IMG/VR virus record: IMGVR_UViG_3300010354_000815
Coordinates: 1 to 21,447 of that record
Length of the DNA: 21,447 nucleotides
Strand: one strand, 5' to 3'
Source of the DNA: a virus
Under the pieces are notes generated by a model. The model ran no database searches, had not been told where the DNA came from, and was given only the letters and a program-made list of their open reading frames with translations. This document shows, one piece after another, positions 1,560 through 18,500 of the stretch (position 1 is the stretch's first letter; each line of letters starts with the position of its first letter). The translations under genes and the position numbers were made by a program.

Positions 1560-4500
1560 TTAACTTGCTAAGGCAATAGCTCTAAAGTATTTAAATTGTG
1601 GTACAATTGCTTGATTAGAAGATGACATACAAATTTTAATTTGGAATTTTACAAATTCTAATCCAGAAGCAGAGTACTCATAAGGTCTGAAATGATATTC
1701 ACTTGCGGGGGTGACAGGACTATCTGGACCACCATCTTCATTAAAAAATGTCCATCCAATAGTACTTTCAATTCCAGTAAAACCTGGTGGAACGACACGA
1801 TACAATACTCTAAAATTAGTTTCACCTGGTCGATAGGCATCAAAATATACTTTTATAGATCTTGAAATTTGATTATCTAATGGAATCATTCTAGTAATAT
1901 ATACAGCATCATGAGGATCACCAACAAAATTAACGGCACTATTCCAATTATCTGGATTATTGATCCTATTTGATGTTGTTATAATACTAGATCTATCCAA
2001 ATCTACAACTGGAGATAGTAAGTCACTTTCACTAGACAATAATAATTCTAATGTAAATGACTTTTCACCAGCAAGTTTGGAATTTTCATTTGTTCCTGAT
2101 AAAATTAATTTTTGTGATTCGAGATAATTTAGACTATTTAATGATACTGGTACATATTGACCATCATTGACAAATGAAGCTTCAGTTGTAGTTCCATTGT
2201 TGATAGAAGAACCAGTAATAGTATTAATTCTAGAAACAATAGAGGTTTTGGATTGTTGTACAACTTGTATTGATGGAGTTATATATTCAAATGCAATATT
2301 TTGTGATGCTGTTCCTACAGTTCCACCAGATTTAATTCCTGATGATGATACAGAATCACATTGTAAATCATATGAATCTAACGTTGGGTTTAAAATACCA
2401 ACATGCGTTTTATTAATTTCCGTGAGTGGAATACCATCTAAATTATAGCACTCAACAAAAGCTCCATCGGTATGTGAAACCGCAACAGTTCCATTTTGTC
2501 CCCTACCACTAGTTTTAATTGTAATTGTAGTTCCGTCATTTCCTATTGCTGTGTATGCCATAATCTCATTATCTACTTTAATATAACCTGGATTATCATC
2601 TCCTATAGGAAGACCATCGATAGTAGTGTGGAATGCAGAAGCATCGCTAACACTTAAAGATAATTCTGATGATGTTATTGTTGTTTTTAGAGTTGTGGGA
2701 GGTATTTCTGATAATATACCAGTAATCGTAACTTGATTAGTTGTATCATGCATTCCATGATTACTGTGTAGCACAGTAATTCTCTTTGATATAGAAGAAT
2801 ATGTTGGTGTTAAACTTAAATATTTTTGTACTGAATCACCCGAATAAGTTGTATTAGAACTATCAACTGTTCCAGATACAGATGGAGAAGATTGGGAAAT
2901 TGTTTCTCCATTAGTAAATTGCTTGGAAACATAATTTACAGTTGCAGTATTAGTACCAGAATTCCAGGCCGTAACAATTGCAGTTGCTCCACTAGTGCTT
3001 CCTGTTAGTGTTTTACCAACACCAAAAGTTCCCGTTGGAGATGTAATTCTAATAGATCCTAATGATTGACTACTTACAATTGGATATGTAACTACTCCAC
3101 CAATACTGCTTCCTTGTAGAAACGTTCCATCAACGTTATCAACTATTAATTGATATGGTGATGTTGAGGTTACAACTTGTTGAATAGTTGCTGAAGCATT
3201 TGTAGTTGCTTGATAAATTCTAGCACCAATAGTATATGACCCACTAGTGTCGGAAAGAATTAATGTTTGAGTTGGTTTTTGTGTAATAATTGGATCTTCC
3301 CTTAGTGTAACAATTCCTCTATTACCTACACCCAGTTCAGCATTATTTAAAACTAATTTTCCACTTAGGGGACCAAATTGAGCTCTATAGATGTTAAATT
3401 TAAGATCCTGAAGTTGATTTGGTGACCAAGTTGAAGCATTTTGAGATTTAAATAAAACACCAGCATAAGGTTGAGCTGAAATTGTTCTATCTCCAGTAAT
3501 ATCAATTTCACCCATTTCAGAAATCCAAACTGTATATTTATTTGAATCTGAGAATAGAACAAAACAATATTCCTCAGTATCACTAATATAAACTGGTGCT
3601 GGGAATCTGAATACTGTAGGTATAGAAGCGTTTTCAGAAATCTCTACGTTTTCTGGATATACTGTAACTGTTGATAGGGGAAGAATGCGATTAGTTGGGA
3701 TACCATTTTGCATTACTCGAATTTGACCGCTTACTGGAACATTAGTATCTTTAGAATTGAAATAAACTTCAACCTTGGATAGATAACATCCTCCCTTTTC
3801 CTGAACAATAAAAGATTGTGCTAGAGGATCCCACCATCCAATTACAACTTGTTCACTTCTAGTTCTGGTTGTAGTTCTTTCGTCTAAAATTGGAATAGTT
3901 TGAACATCTGCATTTCTAATTGAAAGAACAGTTTCTTGTGATGTTTCTAATGTACCAGTTGCTTCATATGTAACTTGAGCACTCGAATCTGTAGAAGATC
4001 CGATTGCTGGTGCAGCATCAGTTGAACTAGTTGTTAACTTAAATACTCTTCTTCCAGTTGCCCATCTTGGATTTGTTGATATATTTCCTCTTGGAATAAA
4101 AAATGCTCCTTTAAATGTTCCTCTTGGATCGGTAATTAATCTTCTATCACTAATTACTGCTTTAGCACCAGAAGATAATCCAGTAATAATATAATTTGGT
4201 TGTATATTACCAAAATAATTTGAACTTACTTGCTCTGCTAAAGAATTTACATCAATATTTAAATATGAAGTTTCTGATGAGTATACATCAGATAACTCAG
4301 CTGAAGTATATGGATTATATCTGTATCCATCATTCAAAGCAGCAACTTTAGATCTAAAAATTACCGTTTTAACTCCAGTAGAAGACACTTCTTCCATGCT
4401 GACAGTTTCACCAACTTGGAATGGAATACTATTAGAATTTGGATTTATTGTAGGATTTTTAATTAATTCAAGAATTTTTGGTATAATATATGTGGTTACA

Positions 4501-7500
4501 GGAACGTTATCGAAGAATGCATAGATTCTTGTAGATGGTTTTAATCTCTCAGCTTTAATTGCAATATTTCTTGAGCGGATCCAAGGAATCGAAGTTTTAT
4601 TGATAATTCTAGATCCTAAACTCTGAGAATCAAATCTTTCAACTACTCTTTGTTGAGTACCTGTTCGTCTTTCAATAATTCCTGTTGTTGTAGTGGTTCG
4701 TGTACCGATAGCTGGTATTAATCTACCTAGAGGACCTACCCATCCTCTCCATTCACCTCCAGATGTAGTTGCTCTTGCTCCAGACCAATCTTCAACCCAA
4801 GATCCCCATTGCTGAGGACCAAATCCATTTTGATCTGCTCCAATCTCTCTTGATCTGGATTGAAAATCTCCTTCAACTCTAACAATATTAACTGGAGCAA
4901 TTTCAGTTTCAACCCAATCATCACTAGAAGGATTTAATTCTATTGCGCCCAAAAAGGTGAAAACGTTGAATGGGTTAACATTTTCAACTCTAGATGCGTA
5001 TGGTTGTTGAATTAATAATAAGTCTTCGAATGGTAAAGTAACTAGACCAGTATTTCTAACAACGTTAGAAGATGCAGTTTGATTGTATATTAAAGAAGTA
5101 TTTGAGGTATAGTGAGAAGGTCTTAAAATTCTTTCTGCAAAATCGATAGATGCGGAATAATCTTCATTATCACTATCAATTACATTTTGATTTTCGAATG
5201 AATCTACAAAAAATCCATTTTTAAATTTATCATTACCAAATTCATCTTGGATTGTTAAAGTATTTGTTTCCTGCTCTAAGAGAGTTAATACACTGTAATA
5301 TTCAACATTTGAAATTCTTCTATCCAATAGTGCAATATCTCTCATCGAATAGCGTTTGATATTTTCTTTAAATACCAAACTATCCACGTCAGGATCATAT
5401 CCATATGCTTCATGTGCAATCGTAGCAAGAAGCATAACTCCACTTGTATCATCTGGAGGAGATGGAATTTCTTCAGACTTTCCTGCAACTAATAAAAATC
5501 TACCATCCTTATCGACAAAAAGTTTATCAATTCTCTTCAAATAATAAGAATAATCACATCTAAAATCGGAATCTGGTTTAGGAATATCGAAAACAGTAGA
5601 TCCTTCAGAAACTGAAAACACTCTACTAGAGAAATCAAATGTCGAACAAACTAAATTAAATGGATCTGATAGTGTACCATCTCCATCTGCCAAAGAAGCA
5701 ACAGCAGGTCTAAAGTCTAAAACATCTCTTAACTGTTTTTTAGCATATAAAGTTGTTCCTGTTCCAGCTGCAGGAGTAAATGATGGAATATCTTTATAGT
5801 CAGTTCCAACATAAGAATCAATATTAAAATAATCTCCAGTAGATTCGTGGGAATAGTAATCTGCAACTATCTTTAATTTTCTAATTGGGTCATTCGAACC
5901 TTTCTTTCTAACAATTTTAGAAACATCATAGAAAAATTCCTTTTGTCCAGATTCCAAATAGAATGATGATGTAATATTTTTACTACCAGCATTAATAGAT
6001 CCTGTAGCATCACTAATTAAAGCTTCTATTGCATCACCATTACTATTAAAACCAGTAATAGTTTCATTTTGTTGGAAAGTTAAATTATTTTCGTATACAA
6101 CACTCAATCTCAAATTGCCACTATTGAAATCAACAACAAAAGCTTTTGCACCAGAAGTTTTTCCTGTAATTAATGATCCAGTTGCAAAGAAAGCAGATTC
6201 AACCAAAGTGATATATGGTATTACAGCATCATTATTATCTACGGATTCGTATACAGCTCTTAAATTATATACATCTGAAACACCCAAAGAAATTTCTTTA
6301 TCTTCAATTCTAATGCCATAGATATTAGAGTATGACAATCCATATTGAATCTGATCACTTTGCTTATAGGTTTTTCCAACCTTCCAAATTTTCATCTTAT
6401 TGCCATTTTTAACTTTTTCGGTGACAATATTTTTGGAGATTGCTGCATTGAAGCGAACCGAAGTAATTCCAACAAGATTGCTAACTGTAATAGTTGATCT
6501 TGGAACACCACTAGTATTAAATGTTGTATAAGCAGCTCCAGATGAATTACTATTTTGTAATACTAGTACAGTACCAATAGTATAAGATGAACCACCAGAT
6601 ATTCCAGTTACTACTAAATTGTAATTTTCTGTCTCTACAGATTCAAACTGTTGATTCTCTGCAAGAGCAATTGTAAAACTGTTACTTGTAATCTGAGATT
6701 CATATGTTCTTCTGATGATCATACTTTCATCAGAAATCGTTTTGATGGATTCTTTTGGCATTTCCGTAAAGAGATCCCCATTTTGCTTACCTTGAAGTTC
6801 TGGTCTCTTTCTAACTACAACAGTGTATTCTGTACCAGTTGTAGGACTAAATCCATTAACAGGAGTTACTTTGAATACCTGTGTGCTGTATGTGAAGATT
6901 GTTGAGGTATCTAAATCTGCTGGTACTGCAGCAACAGTAAAATAATTGGTAGGTGAAATATACAAACGATCCCCAGGTCTAACTTCTGGAGAAATATTAC
7001 TATTAAATCCAGTTAAATACCCTTGAGATGAAACAATCGTATATGTAAATTTATCGCCAGTTAATTTTACTTCATCAGTAAAAGAAATATCACCAGTTAA
7101 TATTACTGTGCTAGAAACATTTCTACCCGCAATTTGTCTAACATCCGAAAATTCATAAGTATATACTTTAGAAATGGTTCCTTTGTCTCGGCCGTCCACT
7201 TCAATGACTTCTCCAGATCGGAAAGAACCACTTACCCCGTATAAAGTGACAGTTTGACCAGTGAACGAAGTTCCACTACTCAGACGAAGAAAACCTGTGG
7301 CACCACTAGTCTTACCTCTAATCAATGATCCACCTTCAATAGTTACAGATCCAGTCAAATACAATTTTGTAAAAAGAGAAATGTCAAAAATATGAGCATC
7401 ATAATAATCATTTAAATTTCCTTCAACGGTATCTGTTCCACTAGAAGTAAATTCCCAACTTGCAATTCTAGCTAATCCAATAATATTTCCTGCAACAGCA

Positions 7501-8795
7501 CCTGGAGATGCTGTTACAGCATCTCTCAATTCAATTGTTTGATATGAATTATCAATATCAGGACCACTTAAAATAGGAGATCCATATACATTAGATAATT
7601 GAATATTATTACCCAACTCAAAAGGAATAATATTATTTTGTAATGATTTGTATTCTCTAGGTTTTGGCAAATCTAGATATACTGGCGAATCTCTAACAAT
7701 TGGGTATCCTTGAAGATATACTCTTCCTGGTGAAATTTGTATAGTATATAAATCTTCCGATGCTAATACTTTAGTATCCTCGGTATAAGTACCAGCAAGA
7801 TATACTCCATTATTAAAACCATCATTCAAACATTCTCTAACTTTAATATCAAATGGAGTGACCATAAAATCTCCAGCGAGATCGTATAGTTGCGATGCAA
7901 AACGCTTTTCTAATTCATTATATTTTGTTTCGTCAACTCGTAATTCTACCTTACCTTTTTTGAGTCTTAAAAGTTCTAAGAAATTTTTATCTGCATCATC
8001 ATCAATATCTTTTTTGACTAATGTTGCTTTAATCTTAAATCTATGAGCACCTGGAGCTGCATAGTTAGAAGATCCAGCAGCATTATCATTGAGAGATGAA
8101 TCGTCTTCGGAAGTTATAATCGATTCTGATATTTCAAGTCCAATTCTATATGATGGATTTTGACTATACTGTTCTAAAATTAAACTTTGAAATTCTACGT
8201 CAACAAAAAATCCTCTGATAAAATATACACCAGTATTAATATATGCAATAGATCCTATTTGTGTTGCATCATTTGGGATTAATTGTGCGACAGGGGTTCC
8301 AATTTCAATTAAAGTTGTTCCAAAAGTAATTTCCGAATCTACAATAATTTGTTCGTTATTTTGAAATTTTTTATTTGTTTTTTGTGTTCCACCAGATTCA
8401 GTATATTTTACATACAATGTGATGAAACCTTTATCGGATTCAACATTACTAATAGTATTAATGACTTCGGCTTTTACTCCACTAGTAAGACCAGTAATAG
8501 TTTTTCCTAATAATGATGTTCTATAATTCTCAACTTCAGATCCTAAGAATGATGATTGTAATAAAATGCAGTCTACAGTGTTGTCCCAACCAACCTGGCC
8601 AGGAATAACCATAGCACCATCTTTAAATAGATGGGATCCTACACTTTCTACTTGATTTTGCAAGATAGATTGTAGAGTTGTTAATTCTCTAGCTTGAATT
8701 GGAAATCCAGGTCTAAAAAGAACTTTATAAAAGTTCTTAAATTTGTCAAAATCATCATAATAAGGGCTGACATTCAGGTTGGTATTCTGTGACAT
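1560..8795 (-). CDS. Giant DUF4815-type virion structural protein (2411 residues), baseplate periphery
   Basis: The N-terminus has YYDDFDKFKNF and VLFRPGFPIQARELTTLQ (about 12-42), the start of the DUF4815 family of phage structural proteins. The family continues through SPGRVYLQGYPIVRD (about 355-370) and LRDVLDFRP (near 1028). Later conserved blocks are W-rich WGSWVEDWSG (about 1335), IPWIRSRNIAIKAERLKP (about 1405-1425), WWDPLAQSF...GGCYLSKVEVYF to LKFNIYRAQF (about 1652-1805), and a C-terminal sheet-rich domain with IKVYFDAYRPGETNF and ending ALAS (about 2255-2411). At least five G-x-T/S-S-G-x-x-A modules (near 101, 490, 880, 1540, 1935) interrupt it. A GYIKVDNEIMAYT...RGQNGT block lies near 2065-2115. 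No signal peptide or membrane segment is seen. It follows gp8 by 19 nt with AGGA 5 nt before the ATG. Its slot is that of T4 gp9/gp10, so a wedge or fibre-connector role is plausible but inferred. Confidence 0.85.
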   Translation of the reverse strand: MSQNTNLNVSPYYDDFDKFKNFYKVLFRPGFPIQARELTTLQSILQNQVESVGSHLFKDGAMVIPGQVGWDNTVDCILLQSSFLGSEVENYRTSLLGKTITGLTSGVKAEVINTISNVESDKGFITLYVKYTESGGTQKTNKKFQNNEQIIVDSEITFGTTLIEIGTPVAQLIPNDATQIGSIAYINTGVYFIRGFFVDVEFQSLILEQYSQNPSYRIGLEISESIITSEDDSSLNDNAAGSSNYAAPGAHRFKIKATLVKKDIDDDADKNFLELLRLKKGKVELRVDETKYNELEKRFASQLYDLAGDFMVTPFDIKVRECLNDGFNNGVYLAGTYTEDTKVLASEDLYTIQISPGRVYLQGYPIVRDSPVYLDLPKPREYKSLQNNIIPFELGNNIQLSNVYGSPILSGPDIDNSYQTIELRDAVTASPGAVAGNIIGLARIASWEFTSSGTDTVEGNLNDYYDAHIFDISLFTKLYLTGSVTIEGGSLIRGKTSGATGFLRLSSGTSFTGQTVTLYGVSGSFRSGEVIEVDGRDKGTISKVYTYEFSDVRQIAGRNVSSTVILTGDISFTDEVKLTGDKFTYTIVSSQGYLTGFNSNISPEVRPGDRLYISPTNYFTVAAVPADLDTSTIFTYSTQVFKVTPVNGFSPTTGTEYTVVVRKRPELQGKQNGDLFTEMPKESIKTISDESMIIRRTYESQITSNSFTIALAENQQFESVETENYNLVVTGISGGSSYTIGTVLVLQNSNSSGAAYTTFNTSGVPRSTITVSNLVGITSVRFNAAISKNIVTEKVKNGNKMKIWKVGKTYKQSDQIQYGLSYSNIYGIRIEDKEISLGVSDVYNLRAVYESVDNNDAVIPYITLVESAFFATGSLITGKTSGAKAFVVDFNSGNLRLSVVYENNLTFQQNETITGFNSNGDAIEALISDATGSINAGSKNITSSFYLESGQKEFFYDVSKIVRKKGSNDPIRKLKIVADYYSHESTGDYFNIDSYVGTDYKDIPSFTPAAGTGTTLYAKKQLRDVLDFRPAVASLADGDGTLSDPFNLVCSTFDFSSRVFSVSEGSTVFDIPKPDSDFRCDYSYYLKRIDKLFVDKDGRFLLVAGKSEEIPSPPDDTSGVMLLATIAHEAYGYDPDVDSLVFKENIKRYSMRDIALLDRRISNVEYYSVLTLLEQETNTLTIQDEFGNDKFKNGFFVDSFENQNVIDSDNEDYSASIDFAERILRPSHYTSNTSLIYNQTASSNVVRNTGLVTLPFEDLLLIQQPYASRVENVNPFNVFTFLGAIELNPSSDDWVETEIAPVNIVRVEGDFQSRSREIGADQNGFGPQQWGSWVEDWSGARATTSGGEWRGWVGPLGRLIPAIGTRTTTTTGIIERRTGTQQRVVERFDSQSLGSRIINKTSIPWIRSRNIAIKAERLKPSTRIYAFFDNVPVTTYIIPKILELIKNPTINPNSNSIPFQVGETVSMEEVSSTGVKTVIFRSKVAALNDGYRYNPYTSAELSDVYSSETSYLNIDVNSLAEQVSSNYFGNIQPNYIITGLSSGAKAVISDRRLITDPRGTFKGAFFIPRGNISTNPRWATGRRVFKLTTSSTDAAPAIGSSTDSSAQVTYEATGTLETSQETVLSIRNADVQTIPILDERTTTRTRSEQVVIGWWDPLAQSFIVQEKGGCYLSKVEVYFNSKDTNVPVSGQIRVMQNGIPTNRILPLSTVTVYPENVEISENASIPTVFRFPAPVYISDTEEYCFVLFSDSNKYTVWISEMGEIDITGDRTISAQPYAGVLFKSQNASTWSPNQLQDLKFNIYRAQFGPLSGKLVLNNAELGVGNRGIVTLREDPIITQKPTQTLILSDTSGSYTIGARIYQATTNASATIQQVVTSTSPYQLIVDNVDGTFLQGSSIGGVVTYPIVSSQSLGSIRITSPTGTFGVGKTLTGSTSGATAIVTAWNSGTNTATVNYVSKQFTNGETISQSSPSVSGTVDSSNTTYSGDSVQKYLSLTPTYSSISKRITVLHSNHGMHDTTNQVTITGILSEIPPTTLKTTITSSELSLSVSDASAFHTTIDGLPIGDDNPGYIKVDNEIMAYTAIGNDGTTITIKTSGRGQNGTVAVSHTDGAFVECYNLDGIPLTEINKTHVGILNPTLDSYDLQCDSVSSSGIKSGGTVGTASQNIAFEYITPSIQVVQQSKTSIVSRINTITGSSINNGTTTEASFVNDGQYVPVSLNSLNYLESQKLILSGTNENSKLAGEKSFTLELLLSSESDLLSPVVDLDRSSIITTSNRINNPDNWNSAVNFVGDPHDAVYITRMIPLDNQISRSIKVYFDAYRPGETNFRVLYRVVPPGFTGIESTIGWTFFNEDGGPDSPVTPASEYHFRPYEYSASGLEFVKFQIKICMSSSNQAIVPQFKYFRAIALAS

Positions 8796-8814: not shown

Positions 8815-10347
8815 TTAGAATTCGATAACAATTTTAATATCTTCAATCTGATCGCTTGCGCGAGAAATCGATCTCCTATTATCTATATAGATAACTTCGC
8901 CGCTGTTTCTTTGGATCTCTGGATAAGCATATCCAGATGTAAATTTCATTCCCAAATCATATTCGGTGTTGTTAATTGTCCTTGTGGAAGTTCCAGGAAC
9001 AGCAGGGAAATTGACATCTGGTTCTGCAGATGCACCTGAGGAGGAACCAGTAATAACATTACTACCGTCAAATAAATTTAAGGATCCAGTAATTTCTGGA
9101 TAAATTCCATCAATTCTATTTTGATAAAATTTCAATACTTTAGTCGTAGAATTCCAAGAAATAACTCTCCCCCTAGATGTAATAGATTGCCCACTTACAG
9201 TTCTAGTTTGAGTAATAATTTCATCTACAATAAAATTTCCTTGAAAAGTTGGTGAAAAAATTACCGCTTTTGTAGCACTAAGAGTTAAATCTGAAGATAA
9301 TTCTTGAGTATTGTATTTGTATGGATTTAAAAGTAATCCAATTCTGCGGTAATCATTATCAATTGGAAAGTCACCAGATCCTTCTGAGTAAGAAAGTTTG
9401 GCATTTACCATTACTCTATATCCACCCAATTCAAATGATGGATCAGAACCATGACCACTTTGAGGAGGAATAATTACATCAATAGTTCCGCCAGTTCCAG
9501 TTCCAATTCCATTGATAGAATCAACTATAATTTTTCCAAAAGTATACCCAGTTCCACCAGAAGTTACAGTTGCATTTACAATTTTACCACCGTCAATAAC
9601 TAATGATACTCTTCCACCAGTACCATCTCCTACAATTGCAACATTGTCATAGGTTCCATTGTTATAACCAGATCCAGAAGCAGTAATTACAACAGTATCA
9701 ATTTCACCTGCTACAGCATTACTTAAAACTGAGGTGTCTTCTAGAACTGGTATATATTCAGATGAGAAAAATTTTAAAACTTGAGCAACTGGAATTGTAT
9801 ACATGTATTTCCATCTATATCCGTCAGCTGTAGTTACAATAGATGTTGAAGTTCCAGTTGGTTCGATAGTTGATGGTTTTCCATTGGGATCTGATGGTGA
9901 TGTTCCATTATAAATGCACTTATAAACTTGATAAGTAGAATTTACAACATAGAAATCGGCATCGTATAAACGAGTAGATCCTGATGCGGCTGTTTTTGTA
10001 GGTGAATAATCATGACGATACATATCATAAATATAACCTAATCCACCAGTAGTTTTTTCTGGCGGAGTCCAGTCAATTCTACGAACTACTTGAATAGTAT
10101 CGTTTGACAAAATTCGTTTCAGAGAGATCATATCATCATATAAATCGCTGTACTCCTCAAAACTATCAATAGCTTGTGGAGGATTATTTTCATTATCCCA
10201 TGCTTGAGGTCTTCCAATAAAAATATATAAACGATCTCTATCAGATCCAGCAACTAAATCCGTTGCTTCTGGATCTGGACCTTCTAGTGACTTAATAAAT
10301 TTTGATGCCGAATAAATTCGGAATTGGTCTGTAAGAAGTGCTGACAT
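8815..10347 (-). CDS. 8: Baseplate wedge protein gp8 homologue (510 residues)
   Basis: In T4, gp8 is a dimeric wedge protein that binds gp7, gp10 and gp6 in the baseplate. The match here is collinear. Residues 40-53 (LYIFIGRPQAWDNE) fit T4 IFITFGRSEPWSS. Residues 161-187 (IEPTG...DGYRWKYMYTIP) fit TIEPGDGYVWEYLFEIP. YRRIGLLLNPY (333-343) fits FRQISIITNPL. The last 30 residues (NSGEVIYIDNRRSISRASDQ...) fit the T4 end. T4 gp8 has 334 residues; the extra length here includes a glycine-rich insert at about 215-300 (SGSGY, GDGTGG, GGTGY, VIIPPQSG) and a stretch with GSSSGASA near 434-441. The insert closely resembles a module in the giant upstream protein. The start has GGGA 7 nt upstream. A possible late promoter lies in the 45-nt gap before it. 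Confidence 0.9.
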   Translation of the reverse strand: MSALLTDQFRIYSASKFIKSLEGPDPEATDLVAGSDRDRLYIFIGRPQAWDNENNPPQAIDSFEEYSDLYDDMISLKRILSNDTIQVVRRIDWTPPEKTTGGLGYIYDMYRHDYSPTKTAASGSTRLYDADFYVVNSTYQVYKCIYNGTSPSDPNGKPSTIEPTGTSTSIVTTADGYRWKYMYTIPVAQVLKFFSSEYIPVLEDTSVLSNAVAGEIDTVVITASGSGYNNGTYDNVAIVGDGTGGRVSLVIDGGKIVNATVTSGGTGYTFGKIIVDSINGIGTGTGGTIDVIIPPQSGHGSDPSFELGGYRVMVNAKLSYSEGSGDFPIDNDYRRIGLLLNPYKYNTQELSSDLTLSATKAVIFSPTFQGNFIVDEIITQTRTVSGQSITSRGRVISWNSTTKVLKFYQNRIDGIYPEITGSLNLFDGSNVITGSSSGASAEPDVNFPAVPGTSTRTINNTEYDLGMKFTSGYAYPEIQRNSGEVIYIDNRRSISRASDQIEDIKIVIEF

Positions 10348-10382
10348 TAATTTATCCCAAAAGTTTATGATTCCCTATACTA

Positions 10383-10389
10383 TATTTAG
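10383..10389 (-). promoter_or_regulatory. Possible late promoter element upstream of gp8
   Basis: The minus strand reads ACTAAATATAG in the gap between the 700-residue gene and gp8. It shares the TAAATA core of the T4 late element but lacks the first TA of TATAAATA. It ends 36 nt before the gp8 ATG, leaving room for a leader with the GGGA ribosome site (10358-10355). It is listed because similar cores occupy the two other longer gaps. In AT-rich DNA a chance match is easy. Confidence 0.4.
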
Positions 10390-10392
10390 TTG

Positions 10393-12495
10393 TTAAAATT
10401 CATCATTTCTAATTCTAGTTAAGTAATCCACAGAAAGAATTCTCCATGATGCTCCATTAGATCCTGTTATTTTTTCACCACCCAAAATTGCTTGTGCAAT
10501 AGCACCAGTTCCAGATGCAGATGTAAAAGTTATTGAAGGTGGTGTTATATAACCATATCCTCCAACATTAACGGTAATCGAAGTTATTTGATCAGCAGTT
10601 AACTGTGAAGTTGCTGTACAATTAACTATTGATGATGGTATATTTACCGTGACTGGATCTGCATATCCATTTCCACTATTTAATATTCTGATATCTATTA
10701 TTGTGGAATCATACGAAAACTCATAAAGTATACCTTTTAAAGGATCTGCAGTATCATATGGCACTGGATCTTTAACTACTAAGGTATATGTGCTTGGATC
10801 CCAAGAAACTACCGTAGCTTCTATTAAAGATTCTACTCCAGTTATAGTTTCTCCAACAGTAAAATTTATACCATTATAATTATTTGGATTTCTCGTATCC
10901 ATTTTTATTTCTATAAATGCATTATGTTCAACTCCTTCGTTAAGATTTCCAGCATCGGTAATAGTTGCTATCTTAAACGGTGTGCCTGAATCTTTTATTT
11001 GATCCCCTGCTTCAAATAGGGTGGTATTTGTACCTCCAGTAGTTTCTTCAATGCCATATAGAGTAGATGCATTCCCAGAATCTAAATTAATTTGATTTTC
11101 ATATGAAGTACCAGTATTAATTAAGTCTGGATACCCATTTCCAGCGCCATCCAATTCATCATCATCTTCAAATGCCTGATCTACGAATACTGAAGGTGGT
11201 TGAGTCAATCGATAGATAATTGATCCTACAGAATCTATTACTACATGTGGTAATTCAAAAGCATCTGACGAATCTGCAATTCCACCATCAAATACAACTG
11301 CAGATTTTTCTCCTGGAGTTCCAGCATCAATAAAAGCCAATTCATCAATTCGGAATACTACAAACAACTCTCTTGTTTCTGGTATCCAATCATATACTAT
11401 TGCAATTTTACTTGTAGATGATTCTTCTGTTCTGATGACTCTATCACCAATATTAAATTCATATGCACTTACTTGAGTATTTGGATCATTTTGAGTTGCA
11501 TCCAATACAACTCTTTGGTCATATCTAAAATTTAATCCCCTAGTACACCCAGTCAACCTATTTGAATCTTTTCCTGTATATCTAATTAATTCCTTTTCTA
11601 AAAGGACAACACCACTTCCGCTGTAAGGATCTGTATTAGATATATAAATTGAAGTATCCGATCTTCCTATGTTTTTAGTTATACCAGATAATTGATATAC
11701 TTGTAAGTTGTATGACTGACGATTTCTTGCTTTTCTTTTTAATTTTGCCTTTCGTGTAAACACTACGGTTGGCGCACTCGTATATCCATATCCAGGATCA
11801 GTAACAATAATATCATCAATAGAACCCTGATTAATAACTGCTTTCCCTTTAGCTCCTACTCCACCACCTCCAACAAAAAGAACATATGGAGCATCAAGAT
11901 AAAATTGACCAGGATTGGAAATTGTAACATTATTAGAAATAATACCTTTAACATCAATTTCGGCTGCTCCTGTTGCTCCAGATCCACCACCGCCAGTTAT
12001 CGATAGAAATGGTGGTGTTTCATAATCTCTTCCACTATTTAAAATGGATAGACCTGTAACTGCTTTAGAAACTGCTTTAATTACTGCACCCCCGCCAACA
12101 GCACCTAAAACTGATGCATTAACATCATAAAAATGTTTATCGCCATTTTTGGTAACTTGTATATAATCAATTTCACCATTTTCTTTTAGAATTATTTTGG
12201 CCGCTGCTGGATCTGGTTGCTCTTCTCCAGATGGTACAACTGGAGTTAGTTGAACTCTTAATGGATTATATCCTTCTCCACTATCTAAAACCTTAACCGC
12301 AACAATTTTTCCATTATTGATTACTGGTTGTAAAACAGCTGCTCGTGTAGGAGTTCCTGCATTTCCAATACTTAAAAGTGGAGGATTGTCTGGATCATAT
12401 CCAGATCCCCCATCCACAACGATAACAGAATCAACTCCTAAATTATCATTAAAGATGGGTGAAATAGATGCTCCAGATCCAGGTACTATTGCCAT
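10393..12495 (-). CDS. GxGY-repeat virion structural protein (700 residues)
   Basis: No family name is certain. Seven beta-type repeats of the form I/V-x-x-x-G-x-G-Y-x-x-P-P-x-[VL]-x-[IF] are visible: SGYDPDNPPLLSI (31), GEGYNPL (73), GRDYETPPFLSI (155), GQFYLDAPYVLF (196), GYGYTSAPTVVF (235), GNGYADPVTVNI (608) and GYGYITPPSITF (646). Glycine-rich turns such as GGGGSGATG lie between some of them. A basic stretch RKAKLKRKARNR (249-260) separates the first repeat block from a middle domain with SIYISN...LLEKELIRYTGKD...CTRGLN (about 282-322). That segment recalls the EIMAYT...RG segment of the DUF4815 protein. There is no signal peptide. It sits immediately before gp8, in the region where T4 encodes gp7. 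An elongated accessory protein of the baseplate or its spikes is a reasonable inference. The start has AGG 8 nt upstream. Confidence 0.8.
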   Translation of the reverse strand: MAIVPGSGASISPIFNDNLGVDSVIVVDGGSGYDPDNPPLLSIGNAGTPTRAAVLQPVINNGKIVAVKVLDSGEGYNPLRVQLTPVVPSGEEQPDPAAAKIILKENGEIDYIQVTKNGDKHFYDVNASVLGAVGGGAVIKAVSKAVTGLSILNSGRDYETPPFLSITGGGGSGATGAAEIDVKGIISNNVTISNPGQFYLDAPYVLFVGGGGVGAKGKAVINQGSIDDIIVTDPGYGYTSAPTVVFTRKAKLKRKARNRQSYNLQVYQLSGITKNIGRSDTSIYISNTDPYSGSGVVLLEKELIRYTGKDSNRLTGCTRGLNFRYDQRVVLDATQNDPNTQVSAYEFNIGDRVIRTEESSTSKIAIVYDWIPETRELFVVFRIDELAFIDAGTPGEKSAVVFDGGIADSSDAFELPHVVIDSVGSIIYRLTQPPSVFVDQAFEDDDELDGAGNGYPDLINTGTSYENQINLDSGNASTLYGIEETTGGTNTTLFEAGDQIKDSGTPFKIATITDAGNLNEGVEHNAFIEIKMDTRNPNNYNGINFTVGETITGVESLIEATVVSWDPSTYTLVVKDPVPYDTADPLKGILYEFSYDSTIIDIRILNSGNGYADPVTVNIPSSIVNCTATSQLTADQITSITVNVGGYGYITPPSITFTSASGTGAIAQAILGGEKITGSNGASWRILSVDYLTRIRNDEF
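11758..12405 (-). repeat. Five GxGY beta repeats coding region in the 700-residue protein
   Basis: This stretch encodes five degenerate repeats, each centred on a G-x-[GDF]-Y motif, most followed by a proline and a short beta strand (residues 31-246). Spacing between repeats is irregular, about 38-82 residues, with glycine-rich linkers. The repeats are clear in protein but degenerate in DNA, so they look old rather than recently expanded. Confidence 0.7.
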
Positions 12496-12525: not shown

Positions 12526-15500
12526 ATGGTACAACGTTGCTTACAACTACAGTTGGATATGCGTATCCAGATCCTCTTTGTATAACGTCTATTCTACTAA
12601 CTCCAACCAAAGCTTTTGCTTGAGCATCAAATCCAGTAGAAGAATCAAATGATACTGTTGGTCTAGATATATAACCATCTCCAGAAGAAGTTAATTGTAA
12701 CTTACTAACTCTTCCAGTAACTAAATTTGCTAAAGCTTGAGCATTCCTACCCAAAACAGAACCAAGATAATCATAAGTAATTAATGAATTTGAAGACTCA
12801 ATAACAGCAACGGTTCTATTTTGATCCTCACCTTCTATTTCAAGTACATCACCAGATTCTATAGGAGGTATAATTTCTGCTGCAATAACATCAGCATCGG
12901 AACCAATGTAAGAGAAGGCAACAAAAGTAGATCCAGCTCTAGGAATTTCTGCAAAAATAATTCTAGAACCAACAAGTTGGAATGCGACTCCAGGTTCTTG
13001 AATAACACCGTTTAATGAAACTATAATATTATTTTCTGGTTTAATATTAGTTGATGATACTCCCGATGTAATTGTTAAGGAGTAGAATACTTCATTTAAT
13101 TTTAAATTGAAACTACTTCTTAGAGAATCAAATTCAAAACTTATATCATCCAACTGACGAAGTTTACCAACATATACAGCATGGAAAGATGATCCAATTT
13201 CAGGTGGTTCGACAAATTGGATTTTATCACTAAACGCAGTATAAGATGGTCCAGGAGGTTGTAAAATTCCATTAACAAATACTAATAAGTGACCATCAGA
13301 ATCAGGGAAGAATTGATCTCCATTATTAGTTGTAAGATCAAAAGTATCCTGAACTCCATTAAATCCAACAAAGGATCTACTAACGGTTCCTGTTATTTCA
13401 ACTACATTTGATATAACCGCTCTATAATTATTTGATGCAATAACTTGAGCGTATGTATTTAACAATCCTGTAACATCAGTCAAATAAACTCTGTATCCAG
13501 TTCCATAAGAAGTAATTTTACTAACAGTAGCATAAGAATTTGATGGAGTAGTTGTTATAGTAGTAATAGTTGCTAGTCCACTAGGATATTGTTCACCACT
13601 ACCATAATAAGCTACACTATCTCCAATAATAAAAATATCATCGTCTAAAATATTACCAATATAAATGTAAGCAGTAGATCCACCAGGAAGAATTTCATAA
13701 TCAATAATAGTTGCATATTTTCCTTGAGAAATATTATCAATTATATTTGTTATTTGAGATCCAACAGGAAACTCCAGTAAATCTTCATCCAAGTTAACTG
13801 TCAAACGATATGTATTAGTTGTGTGGATTATATCACCGATACCAAGAGATTCTGATTGCGAATCTTGTAAAATATCAATATAGTGTGAACTTATACTAGA
13901 ATATACTATTCTAGTATTGATAAATTCGCCCTGAGTAGATTCTGTTTCAATAACTAATCTCGAACCTGTGTTTGAAAGAATTGGAGAAATATTATAATCA
14001 TAATTTAAACAAGTTAGAGATGATGACGAATACAATCCCTTAATATAGGAATTGGCATTGAAAGAACCAATAACATTTTTTAACTGAACTCTATTGACTA
14101 TTGATGTAATTTCTGCAGTGAAATTGGAAGTATTCAATAATGTATCTCCAATTGCAAATGGACCTTGACCAACTAAAACATCAATATAACTTTCAAATTC
14201 TCCATTTTCAATAGAAACAATAGTGCATGTTCTTGATGGTTGTCCTTGAATGGTTAATATTTGATTTTTTTGGAAGGTTTCTGCTTCTTCATCATATTCA
14301 ATAGTAAATCTGAGATATATATCTTTTACTGTTGCACGATTAAATATTATTGATTCTATCTCAGCATTTCTTCCTGAGGTAAATCCATAAACATAATCAC
14401 CAACAGAAATTTTTCCTGTAACTGGACTTATTGACGTTCTAGTTGGATATGTTTTTGTTGGAACAGTAATAGAATTTGAACTAATGATTGCATTATTTTC
14501 AATATAATCAGCATTGTTTAGAGTTCCTAGCAATATAGCCATTCTATTATCAATAAAAGTTTGCATTGTAGTTAAGTTGGAACCAGTTATAGATATGTTT
14601 ATATCTGTATATGCGTATTGACCAGAAGCAGTAGCAGGAGAAGTTAAAGTCTCTGCTATTGCTTGTTTCATTAACGCATTAACTTGATTGTATGCATATA
14701 TGCTTTGAACCAACTCACCTTGTAGTGACAATACAGTACCAGTAGCAGCATCGATGTATGCTAATGTTGCATTTACAATACCAGAATTTCCATTTGTCAA
14801 TAAATCATATACAAGTGCATCAACAATATAACCAATATCTCTTAAACATTTTGCATTTCCTCCAGGAACAGTAAACGATGGATAATTATTCAAAGTTCTC
14901 TGTAAAGATTCATACTTAATATATTCTTTATTGAATAATAATAGTTTAGCTGTATTTCTTTGTAATGTGCTGCCTGGTTGCAAAATACCAATTGCGACAT
15001 CAAATAACGTATCAATAGTGGACTTGATATTTGCACAACCACCACCATAAGTTCCATCATCAATACTGATAGATAAATCAGTATACTTAGTTGCAGTTGC
15101 TCCGTATTGAGTTGTATATGTTGTTGATGGACCAGTTATCCAGTTATTGATAGCAAGTTGACATAACTCGTTAACTTTTTCAAAAGCTACTATAGTTGGT
15201 AATAATTCATTTTTAACATACTGAATGTTTCCATTTCCAATATAATATTCCATAGCGGATACAATATTGGAATTTCCACCAGTGATTAAATCTGATATGA
15301 TGGATGGGATAATATAATCCACAATGTCTCTTTCGCAGACATCTGCAGATCCTCCTGGATACGTAAAAGCATTGTAGATTATACCGTTTAATGTATATCT
15401 AAAATAAGATTCGATGTATCCAGTTGCTTCTTGAGCGATGTAGTTTCTATTAAACCAGAGTAAGTCTCCAGCATCTCTATAGACTTGACCAGCTGGAGCA

Positions 15501-18500
15501 ATTATATCATTAATACTATTCCATAAAGTATCAATTGCAGATTTGACATTCGCGCATCCACCTCCATCAACAATTACTTCTAATGGTGGAACTGGAACTT
15601 TATCTGTATACGTTGGAGAGGAACTTAAAGTTCCATCAACAGCAGATTGACATAATAAACTCATTTGAGTATGGGCATATAGACTTTGTAATGCCTGTAA
15701 TTTAATAAAGTTCAATCCCCCATTTGCATCAATATAGAATTTTGCTGCTGTAATAGTATTATAATTACCTCCATTTTCTAGATCTTCAGCAACGGCATTC
15801 AATAATAATGATAAATCTAACTTACAACGATTTGTACCATCAGATCCATTAGAAGTATCTCCAGGAATTTCTAAATCTGGATAACGATTTTTTAATCTTC
15901 CCGCTACTTCATCTACAATATAAGAAGAATTTAATCTTAATAAATTTGCAGCATCTCTAAATCTATGTCTGGTATCAGAATCAAATTGACCAGTAATAAT
16001 ATTATTAGTTGTTGTATTAATTTGATTTACGGTAAAAGAAGTTTCGATATAATTGGATGCCTTTGCAGTAACCCCAGAACCATTGGATATAGTTTCTTCT
16101 AAAGTATATGTTCCAACTTGTTGACCAAGATATAATATTTTTAATGCATAATTGATACCAATTATAGTTGCACTTGCTCCAGAAGTAGATCCTGTAACAG
16201 TGTTTCCTACTTGGAAATTACCTCCTGAAATAGTATGATAAGATAATTTTTTAGATGATACTTCTTCTCCTAAAGAAAAATCTCCAGTTTCGTTAATATA
16301 ATCAACACTGATATTTTGGATTAAATCTTTACTTTGAACGTTTGATGTGAGACCACCATCATCAATTATATTTGTATTACCATGGATTAATAATTTTGTA
16401 TAGGTATCATTTGAAAATGGAAGTTGTGCTGGAGTAAATGCGGTTGAGTATCTTGTGAAATTTGATACTCTGATCTCATCAAGATAACCATTATATTGAT
16501 ATTGATTAGTATAAGTATCATCATACCCAATCATTAAACCAGTAGCATTTGCGGATGCTGATGACGTACCAGTATGAACCAAACTACCATTTACAAATGA
16601 TCTGATAGTAGTTCCACTTCTAGTCCAAGCAACGTGAGCCCACTGACCAACCTGTACAGTAGTTCCAGATGATTGTTCGTTAATTGTTACACCATCAAAA
16701 GAAGTTAGATATAATGTACTTCCAACTTTACGAAGTCCCCAATAAAAATTAGGTCCACCAGTCAAAGAGAAGATCATTGAATATGTACCAGATGGTAATG
16801 ATGGAACATATATCCATGTTTCTAAAGTATAATTACCAAAATCAAAATCCGAAGCATCTGTAATAGTTAAATAATCTCCAGATCCATCTAAATAAATTGA
16901 TCCATTACCAAATTTAGATTGCGTTGAAGAGGAAGACGCATTTCCAGAAACCGTAATGGTTTTGGGTGTTCTTTGATTATAATCAAAATCTAAAACGATA
17001 TTTGTTACATCTTCAAATGGAACAAAATTAGATTCTACTTTAATATCAGAATCTTCTAAATCTGTAACTTCAATCAAAGATTTGCTTAGATCATCTACTA
17101 TTGCATTTGGATTTTGTGGATTTACGATTCTATTAAATAAAAGACCGAAGAAAGAACTTGGATCGCTAATCGAAATTGAAGAAACGAAAGTTCCAGTTTC
17201 TGGATCTTGATATGGAGATATTCCTGTAATTTTAGCAACAATTCCAGATTTAGCAGAAACTATAAAATTATTTAATTGCAATTCTAATAATCCTGATGGA
17301 CTATCATAAGTTCCAGAAGACTTACTAATTACTATACTATTAGTAACTGTATTTAACTCACTATTTAAGTTTATTTCTTCAACAATAGCAGTTTTTCCAT
17401 TTAAGTTAGTAATCCTTTCCTTAAATTCAAAAACATTATCATTTTGAATATCGTCCTTAGAAACTAAAGTACAGTTCAATCCTGTAGCAGTAGAAATTAT
17501 AGTTTCTCCATTGGAAAACGTTCCAGAAATATTAAAAATCGTTATTGTTGAAGTTGTAGATGATACAACTGTAGCTGTAGCGTTTGATGTTAATCCTCTA
17601 ATTGAATTTCCTAGTTCTGGTAAAATACCAGACACATTGTTGATAGTTAAAATGTATGTGTTTTCAAAAGTTAATGCTATCTCAGCATAACTAATTTTTG
17701 TAGGAGCTAAAGGAGCTTCAAAGAATACAATACTACCTTGCTGAACAACAAAAGAAGTACCTGGAGATTGTGCGACACCATTAATAACAATCATGAATTG
17801 ACTTGTATTTGCAATTACAACATTACCGTCAATTGTCAAGGGGAAAGTTTTTCTGACACCATCAAATAAGGGGGAAATATCATCTAATTTTTGAACAACT
17901 GAAGTTAAAATTTCCTCCGAAGAAGTCAAACGCTTGGATCTGAAAAGAACTTGAGTATTGTCAAAATCTTGATAAACTGGTTCCACCAATGCAAAATTAT
18001 CAATATCAGCGACAACAGAACTTTCTATCAAATTGACACTCTTAGTCAATTCAAAATCTGTTTTATCTGTCAATCCTTTACCACCCTCAGAAATATCAAT
18101 TTCTCCAAATACTTTAAATCCAGCTGGATGAGTTGTATCAATTAAAGTATTTCTCCACTCTTCAATTGGAACGGGAGATTTAACATTATAAGAGTATGCT
18201 TGATATAAATAGGAATCTTGAATTTTTTGTACAATTTCACTTGGTTTGCCAATATCATCTAAAAACTTACCTACTGTATTGGTAATAGAGTTAACTTCTA
18301 AAACACCCTTGGCAATATTAATTTGAGTTATTGTACCACTTGCCTTTGACACGACTCCACTAATTTGCTGACCAACCTCAAAAATACCATTAACTGATGT
18401 AATTTTTAGAAGTCTTGGTCCAACCTGCCATCCATCATTGGTGGAAACATATCCAGAAGCAGTTGCGGTTTCTAGTGCCTCACCTTGGAATACAAATTCT

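Follow-up and report, generated by a model that had tools for sequence, protein, structure and literature searches.

The giant tail protein encoded on a 21,447-nucleotide virus contig (IMG/VR record IMGVR_UViG_3300010354_000815, positions 1 to 21,447; "the window") contains an array of three tandem helical units at window 14495-15970 on the minus strand. The units are, with little doubt, domains of the phycobiliprotein fold and homologues of the cyanobacterial light-harvesting proteins that give the fold its name. The conserved cysteines of the units are aligned with the two positions at which bilin pigments are attached in that family, and the chance that at least some units carry a bilin appears about even; for fold homology and bilin binding taken together, we estimate a probability of ≈ 0.5. 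The 21.4 kb contig is from the tail module of a T4-like cyanophage, with its main genes all on the minus strand.

The original prediction knew of no named domain for the repeat. Using PF00502 (Phycobilisome protein; curated cut-off 22.2 bits), we obtained confident matches with the whole protein (30.9 bits), the array (39.1 bits) and unit 3 alone (22.7 bits); a confident hit to a characterised family was one of the outcomes that the original prediction had named as its refutation. Unit 1 alone reached 17.0 bits and unit 2, searched singly with PF00502, gave no match. A search of all PDB chains with the single array yielded 30 sequences at E ≤ 1, all of them phycocyanin, allophycocyanin or engineered derivatives, and in these matches it was the chromophore motif that was aligned (kCLRDIGY in unit 3, KCARDIGY in phycocyanin alpha). 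With a family profile built from units of isolate phages and IMG/VR contigs, the best 60 PDB matches were all phycobiliproteins (top E 3.8e-6). The reverse search, in which the phage profile was run against cyanobacterial genomes, gave matches in 11 of 11, and the 18 proteins examined were all phycocyanin- or phycoerythrin-like subunits.

To compare the two families directly, phage units were aligned by hhalign with phycocyanins from cyanobacterial genomes. The alignment covered 124 columns with a score of 63.8 (E 3.5e-10); reversed columns scored 11.1 and ten column shuffles 8.9-16.4. In this combined alignment, both conserved unit cysteines lie opposite the bilin cysteines of beta-phycocyanin, Cys82/84 and Cys153/155. 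When beta or alpha subunits were used alone, the local alignment spanned just the first 60 columns; hence, the support for equivalence of the second cysteine comes from the combined profile and from the resemblance of the residues that follow it (CANVKSAIDTL in the phage, CSALMSEIAGYF in phycocyanin).

Structure prediction pointed the same way. An AlphaFold2 model of unit 3, made from a phage-only alignment with no templates, had a predicted local distance difference test score (pLDDT) of 88.9 and a predicted template modelling score (pTM) of 0.84. A model of all three units (pLDDT 86.7, pTM 0.85) contained three equivalent helical domains, as had been anticipated from the sequence. The predicted fold is the globin-like, all-helical fold of phycobiliproteins: when the unit 3 model was compared by Foldseek with 350,542 PDB chains, the best 50 matches were all phycobiliproteins at probability 1.00 (target template modelling score 0.56-0.78, best E 7.6e-4), including one designated a bacterial fluorescent protein that belongs to the same family. 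The moderate E-values are expected, since identity is just 13-19%. The 50 PDB matches listed for the triple model were again phycobiliproteins, and in a library of predicted viral structures (E ≤ 0.001) the named matches were cyanophage tail or structural proteins and proteins of uncultured Caudovirales. Phycobiliproteins were part of AlphaFold training, and the models thus support the sequence evidence but are not fully independent of it.

The three units are clearly homologous to one another, well beyond chance, as judged from their sequences. Pairwise identity is 30-36% (BLASTP E 1e-19 to 6e-25), and a profile of any two units recovered the remaining one at 1e-19 to 1e-26 (best of 200 shuffles, 0.049). 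Much of what had been read from the letters by eye held up: three tandem units with shared motifs (155, 167 and 147 residues), a LamG domain upstream, and methionine at the LC cysteine position of unit 3, which has also lost GGGC. The 2973 residues contain exactly 10 cysteines (1325, 1874, 1932, 1964, 2037, 2095, 2137, 2200, 2407 and 2479), and seven of them fall within the repeat, three each in units 1 and 2 and one in unit 3, as first counted. The first bilin-type motif reads C-K-L-D in unit 1 (Leu in place of Arg86), C-E-R-D in unit 2 and C-L-R-D in unit 3; the second cysteine lies within GGGCANV in unit 1 and GGGCANI in unit 2. The coordinates are given below.

Table. Predicted features of the window
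Feature	Position	Strand	Support or remark
Giant gp7-position baseplate/tail structural protein, C-terminal 2973 residues	12524..21445	-	phrog_701, phrog_18802, gene order
LamG-like domain (concanavalin A fold), residues 1520-1663, upstream of array	16457..16888	-	PF13385, E 2e-24
Unit 1, residues 1828-1982, 155 residues, phycobiliprotein-fold domain	15500..15964	-	PF00502 E 0.006 alone, unit profile, AlphaFold2 triple
Unit 2, residues 1989-2155, 167 residues, phycobiliprotein-fold domain	14981..15481	-	unit profile, held-out test, AlphaFold2 triple
Unit 3, residues 2163-2309, 147 residues, phycobiliprotein-fold domain	14519..14959	-	PF00502 22.7 bits alone, AlphaFold2, Foldseek
Cys1874, unit 1	15824..15826	-	aligned with bilin Cys84 (Cys82 in beta sequences used)
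Cys1932, unit 1, third cysteine (LLCQ)	15650..15652	-	no known bilin equivalent
Cys1964, unit 1	15554..15556	-	aligned with bilin Cys153/155 of beta subunits
Cys2037, unit 2	15335..15337	-	aligned with bilin Cys84
Cys2095, unit 2, third cysteine (ELCQ)	15161..15163	-	no known bilin equivalent
Cys2137, unit 2	15035..15037	-	aligned with bilin Cys153/155
Cys2200, unit 3	14846..14848	-	aligned with bilin Cys84
Baseplate protein, 700 residues	10393-12495	-	
gp8	8815-10347	-	
DUF4815 protein	1560-8795	-	

Conservation of the putative bilin site was analyzed in 66 unit clusters (60% identity). The first cysteine (Cys84) was present in 50 of them, the aspartate (Asp87) in 54 and the arginine (Arg86) in 35; the complete set occurs in window units 2 and 3. 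The second cysteine (Cys153/155) was found in 27 clusters, with 16 gapped. Together, the two bilin-aligned columns account for 77 of the 96 cysteines, and 99 of 100 loci had the first cysteine in one unit or more. Such placement would suit a thioether-linked pigment no less than it suits disulfides or metal. The third cysteine of units 1 and 2 recurs in ≈ 9 of the 66 clusters, and no bilin cysteine is aligned there.

In the 16 clusters without Cys84, Asp87 was also lost in 12 and a tyrosine beyond the next helix in 10. No such loss was seen at N12, D57, G61 or N108, a pattern suggesting that the ligand site, and not the fold, has decayed. On a tree, this co-loss comprises about eight changes, with independent pairs of 3.8:0 (Asp) and 4.0:0 (Tyr) and most controls near zero. 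We do not use the covariation as proof: common descent of the units inflates the p-values obtained without the tree, where the signal looks overwhelming, and on the tree it is only suggestive.

Like the beta subunits of phycocyanin and phycoerythrin, the units have a predicted globin-like helical fold, a Cys-x-Arg-Asp bilin motif followed by a Gly turn, and a second cysteine ahead of the last helix; in unit 3, the first cysteine is also preceded by the PGGN motif. In contrast to those subunits, they stand in tandem within a giant virus tail protein, their alignment begins past the X-Y helices, the interface residue Arg91 is replaced, and a bilin is a predicted rather than a known ligand. We therefore speak of a phycobiliprotein-fold domain and not of a phycobilisome subunit, since the units recur within a single polypeptide, 2973 residues long or longer, and are not separate subunits of 160-180 residues. 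A side observation concerns the unit's first ≈ 40 residues, the N-terminal helices, which in the S-RSM4 repeat frame p12099 form short tandem copies preceding a full unit (residues 882-920, 925-963 and 968-1006); similar copies occur in S-PM2 and S-RIM32.

The array was found in 361 phage records, all from cyanophages of Kyanoviridae type; 360 are named Synechococcus, Prochlorococcus or Cyanophage and one is a single-cell marine virus in Kyanoviridae. A divergent query, the S-RSM4 array, returned 344 records of the same kinds. Using gp8 as a marker of the module, we obtained 676 records, 459 with cyanophage names; none of the Klebsiella, Vibrio and Rhizobium phages among the 676 had the repeat. 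It was likewise not found in SAR11 phage HTVC008M or in a Methylophilales phage of the same family, nor in P-SSM2, S-CAM9, S-SRM01, RN05-S, S-N03 and AG-345-F15. PF00502 exceeded its cut-off in 5 of 29 genomes checked, so automatic annotation may already exist unremarked.

Does the repeat reach the virion? The giant protein of S-SSM5, which has units, is annotated T4-LIKE GC 969 and as similar to an S-SM1 protein, and S-SM1 itself has the repeat, within a gene product designated virion structural protein. T4-GC969 was detected in purified S-SM1 virions (PMC3037559). Thus, members of this protein family occur in virions, and the giant repeat protein is probably present in the virion of the window phage.

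A candidate partner of the units is the phage T-type bilin lyase CpeT. We surveyed 29 genomes, scoring CpeT as PF06206 over its cut-off with matches within one frame summed; the survey does not include Syn1, S-SM2 and S-SSM7, which lack cpeT (PMC3037559). CpeT was present in 18 of the 21 repeat-bearing genomes and in none of the 8 repeat-lacking ones. The S-type lyase PF09367 was not found among the 29. Full-length cpeT lies within ≈ 2 kb of the giant gene with units in S-PM2, S-RSM4, S-RIM32, ACG-2014e and AG-345-P14; in the last, the repeat frame opens 16 bases past cpeT. In two phages of Prochlorococcus MED4, MED4-213 and P-HM1, the repeat, cpeT, a bilin reductase and heme oxygenase are all present. 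The recombinant phiCpeT of P-HM1 reportedly bound phycoerythrobilin tightly in a 2017 study but did not transfer it to a host subunit. T-type lyases act at the beta Cys153/155 position (PMC10452541), with which the GGGC cysteine of the units is aligned. Like the repeat, CpeT is phage-encoded; it is an enzyme and a candidate partner, and no relative of the repeat.

Two side observations were made on these genomes. S-SCSM2R, which has CpeT and the repeat, also has an nblA gene (28527-28694), for phycobilisome degradation. In S-PM2 (AJ630128, 155000-182000), 16 tRNA genes are annotated inside the giant repeat gene p218. ARAGORN placed zero tRNAs inside this gene and nine just upstream, around cpeT, and the annotated positions thus look out of register.

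Several observations weigh against bilin binding, or against a link to CpeT. The co-loss with Cys84 is non-significant once the tree is considered (sign test p 0.125). Arg91, at the alpha-beta interface, is mostly Asp or Glu in the phage units, and the X-Y helical hairpin is not kept, the hhalign alignment beginning at phycocyanin residue 38. Within the window, unit 1 lacks Arg86 and unit 3 the second cysteine, and about a quarter of the unit clusters lack Cys84 and cannot be chromophorylated there. The Fisher test for co-occurrence of CpeT and the repeat (p 4e-5) ignores relatedness, and in 13 of the 18 phages cpeT is 34-72 kb from the repeat. S-SKS1, S-BM3 and ACG-2014f have Cys84 units and no CpeT over the cut-off, which means that the lyase is not always at hand. 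Finally, P-SSM2 encodes heme oxygenase and a bilin reductase but lacks both cpeT and the repeat; occurrence of the repeat thus does not follow bilin synthesis alone, and the bilin genes of this phage need another explanation.

The most serious alternative is that the captured fold has a structural use only, as a helical spacer or oligomerisation module in the baseplate that holds no pigment, with cysteines that serve packing and a cpeT that serves host phycoerythrin. We consider this quite plausible, if somewhat short of an even chance. Arrays do vary in number among marine phages, as the original prediction expected (2-7 substantial units per repeat-bearing frame, as many as 16 profile matches per genome), are degenerate in some phages and include units without Cys84, and the published view is that phage cpeT aids host light harvesting, S-PM2 infection raising host phycoerythrin (PMC10452541, PMC2984593). 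A purely structural module does not readily account for the best-conserved cysteines lying exactly at the two bilin positions, nor for retention of the Cys-x-Arg-Asp set where the subunit-interface Arg91 is not kept; selection appears to have retained the pocket and not the phycobilisome contacts. Moreover, Prochlorococcus phages with cpeT and the repeat infect hosts without phycobilisomes (PMC2984593).

The original prediction had suggested that an unnamed helical domain could serve as a rod, a hinge, a tape-like element or a spacer stabilized by metal or disulfides. The array is indeed all-helical, tandem and cysteine-rich for its protein, but it matches a named family, and cysteine is essentially confined to the two bilin columns over the 66 clusters. 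Between 13 and 25 clusters keep the first cysteine without the second, an arrangement ill-suited to an obligate disulfide between them within a unit. We regard such a domain as very improbable. A tape measure or whisker helix was rejected since fold and family point elsewhere, and a metal or disulfide spacer because the cysteines sit at the family's two chromophore-attachment positions. Just as improbable is an unrelated helical domain that resembles phycobiliproteins around the C-x-R-D helix by chance or convergence: single-sequence E-values are modest (≈ 1e-3) and the strongest HMMER matches span ≈ 60 columns around that helix, but the profile-profile score is about four times that of the best shuffle, the full-length alignment includes both cysteines, the listed fold-search matches are all phycobiliproteins and the repeat is restricted to phages of cyanobacteria.

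The best-supported reading is that a phycobiliprotein domain was captured, tandemly duplicated and built into the gp7-position baseplate protein. If the units do bind bilin, the following sequence of events may be envisaged. Late in infection, bilin would be supplied by the host, or by phage ho1 and bilin reductases in some phages, and would be thioether-linked to the unit cysteines by phage CpeT and/or host lyases, making the completed tail a biliprotein. That CpeT acts on the units is possible, though we hold it only tentatively. The likeliest consequence would be that the pigment stabilizes tail structure or activity, or that the tail responds to it. The most interesting candidate role, and the least supported step, is in the adsorption of those cyanomyoviruses that need light for it. 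The repeat and cpeT are present in P-HM2 as well as in S-PM2, and S-PM2 is said to have been the main phage of a 2010 study of light-dependent adsorption. Such adsorption was reported in several marine cyanomyoviruses (PMC2984593, PMC5082946); P-HM2 does not adsorb in the dark, and the podovirus P-SSP7 infects in the dark (PMC7112961). A role of the units in this process, to which only these published phenotypes point, is speculative and unlikely, as just a handful of phages, differing in much else, bear on it. Equally doubtful is the complete scheme, in which the CpeT of a T4-like cyanophage would itself attach bilins to the baseplate domains, making the tail a biliprotein, and the pigment would render adsorption or tail activation responsive to light.

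The open reading frame of the giant protein is open at its 5' end at the window edge. By sequence and gene order, it is the counterpart of the very large gp7-position proteins of Kyanoviridae. PHROG profiles cover it (phrog_701, 3105 bits; phrog_18802, 1883 bits), and its place relative to the genes for gp8 and the DUF4815 protein, which come after it, matches that in S-CREM1, S-H38 and P-SSM4; in these phages, the homologue is annotated as a baseplate wedge subunit or initiator. S-CREM1 is the closest isolate across the array (50% identity). Further minus-strand genes in the window encode a small structural protein and an Mtd_N tail protein. The likeness to the T4 baseplate wedge protein gp7 is one of position and names: in isolates, the giant gene sits between gp6 and gp8, and several records call the homologue gp7 or baseplate wedge initiator. 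The region homologous to the gp7 N-terminus falls outside the window. Unlike T4 gp7, the cyanophage protein is much bigger (5,000-7,000 residues in isolates), with the repeat, LamG and other modules as additions. A glycine-rich beta motif, SGY..PP.V...GGGGSGA.A.A, is repeated across the giant protein, the 700-residue protein and gp8 (window 8815-12495 for the latter two), and PHROG head closure and wedge profiles cross-match all three.

The phycobiliprotein-fold domain itself is a known family; its location in a tail, its form as an array and its tie to CpeT are apparently undescribed. We found no report of phycobilisome domains in phage tail proteins in the open-access literature, many subscription papers being outside the search. 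Cyanophage bilin genes have been called a mystery, above all where the host is a Prochlorococcus that has no phycobilisomes, and what phage cpeT does has been termed "unresolved" (PMC3037559, PMC2984593). A phage-encoded acceptor with the phycobiliprotein fold and its cysteines offers these genes a possible substrate in the virion, and the light-dependent adsorption of S-PM2 and P-HM2 becomes testable at the protein level. With the attachment cysteines kept, these virus tails may bear a pigment that absorbs light and, if it proves true, a light-responsive biliprotein tail would join the unexplained bilin genes to the unexplained light-dependent adsorption. Even without pigment, the reuse of a light-harvesting fold in tail proteins of most T4-like cyanophages is a striking capture of a host domain by viruses.

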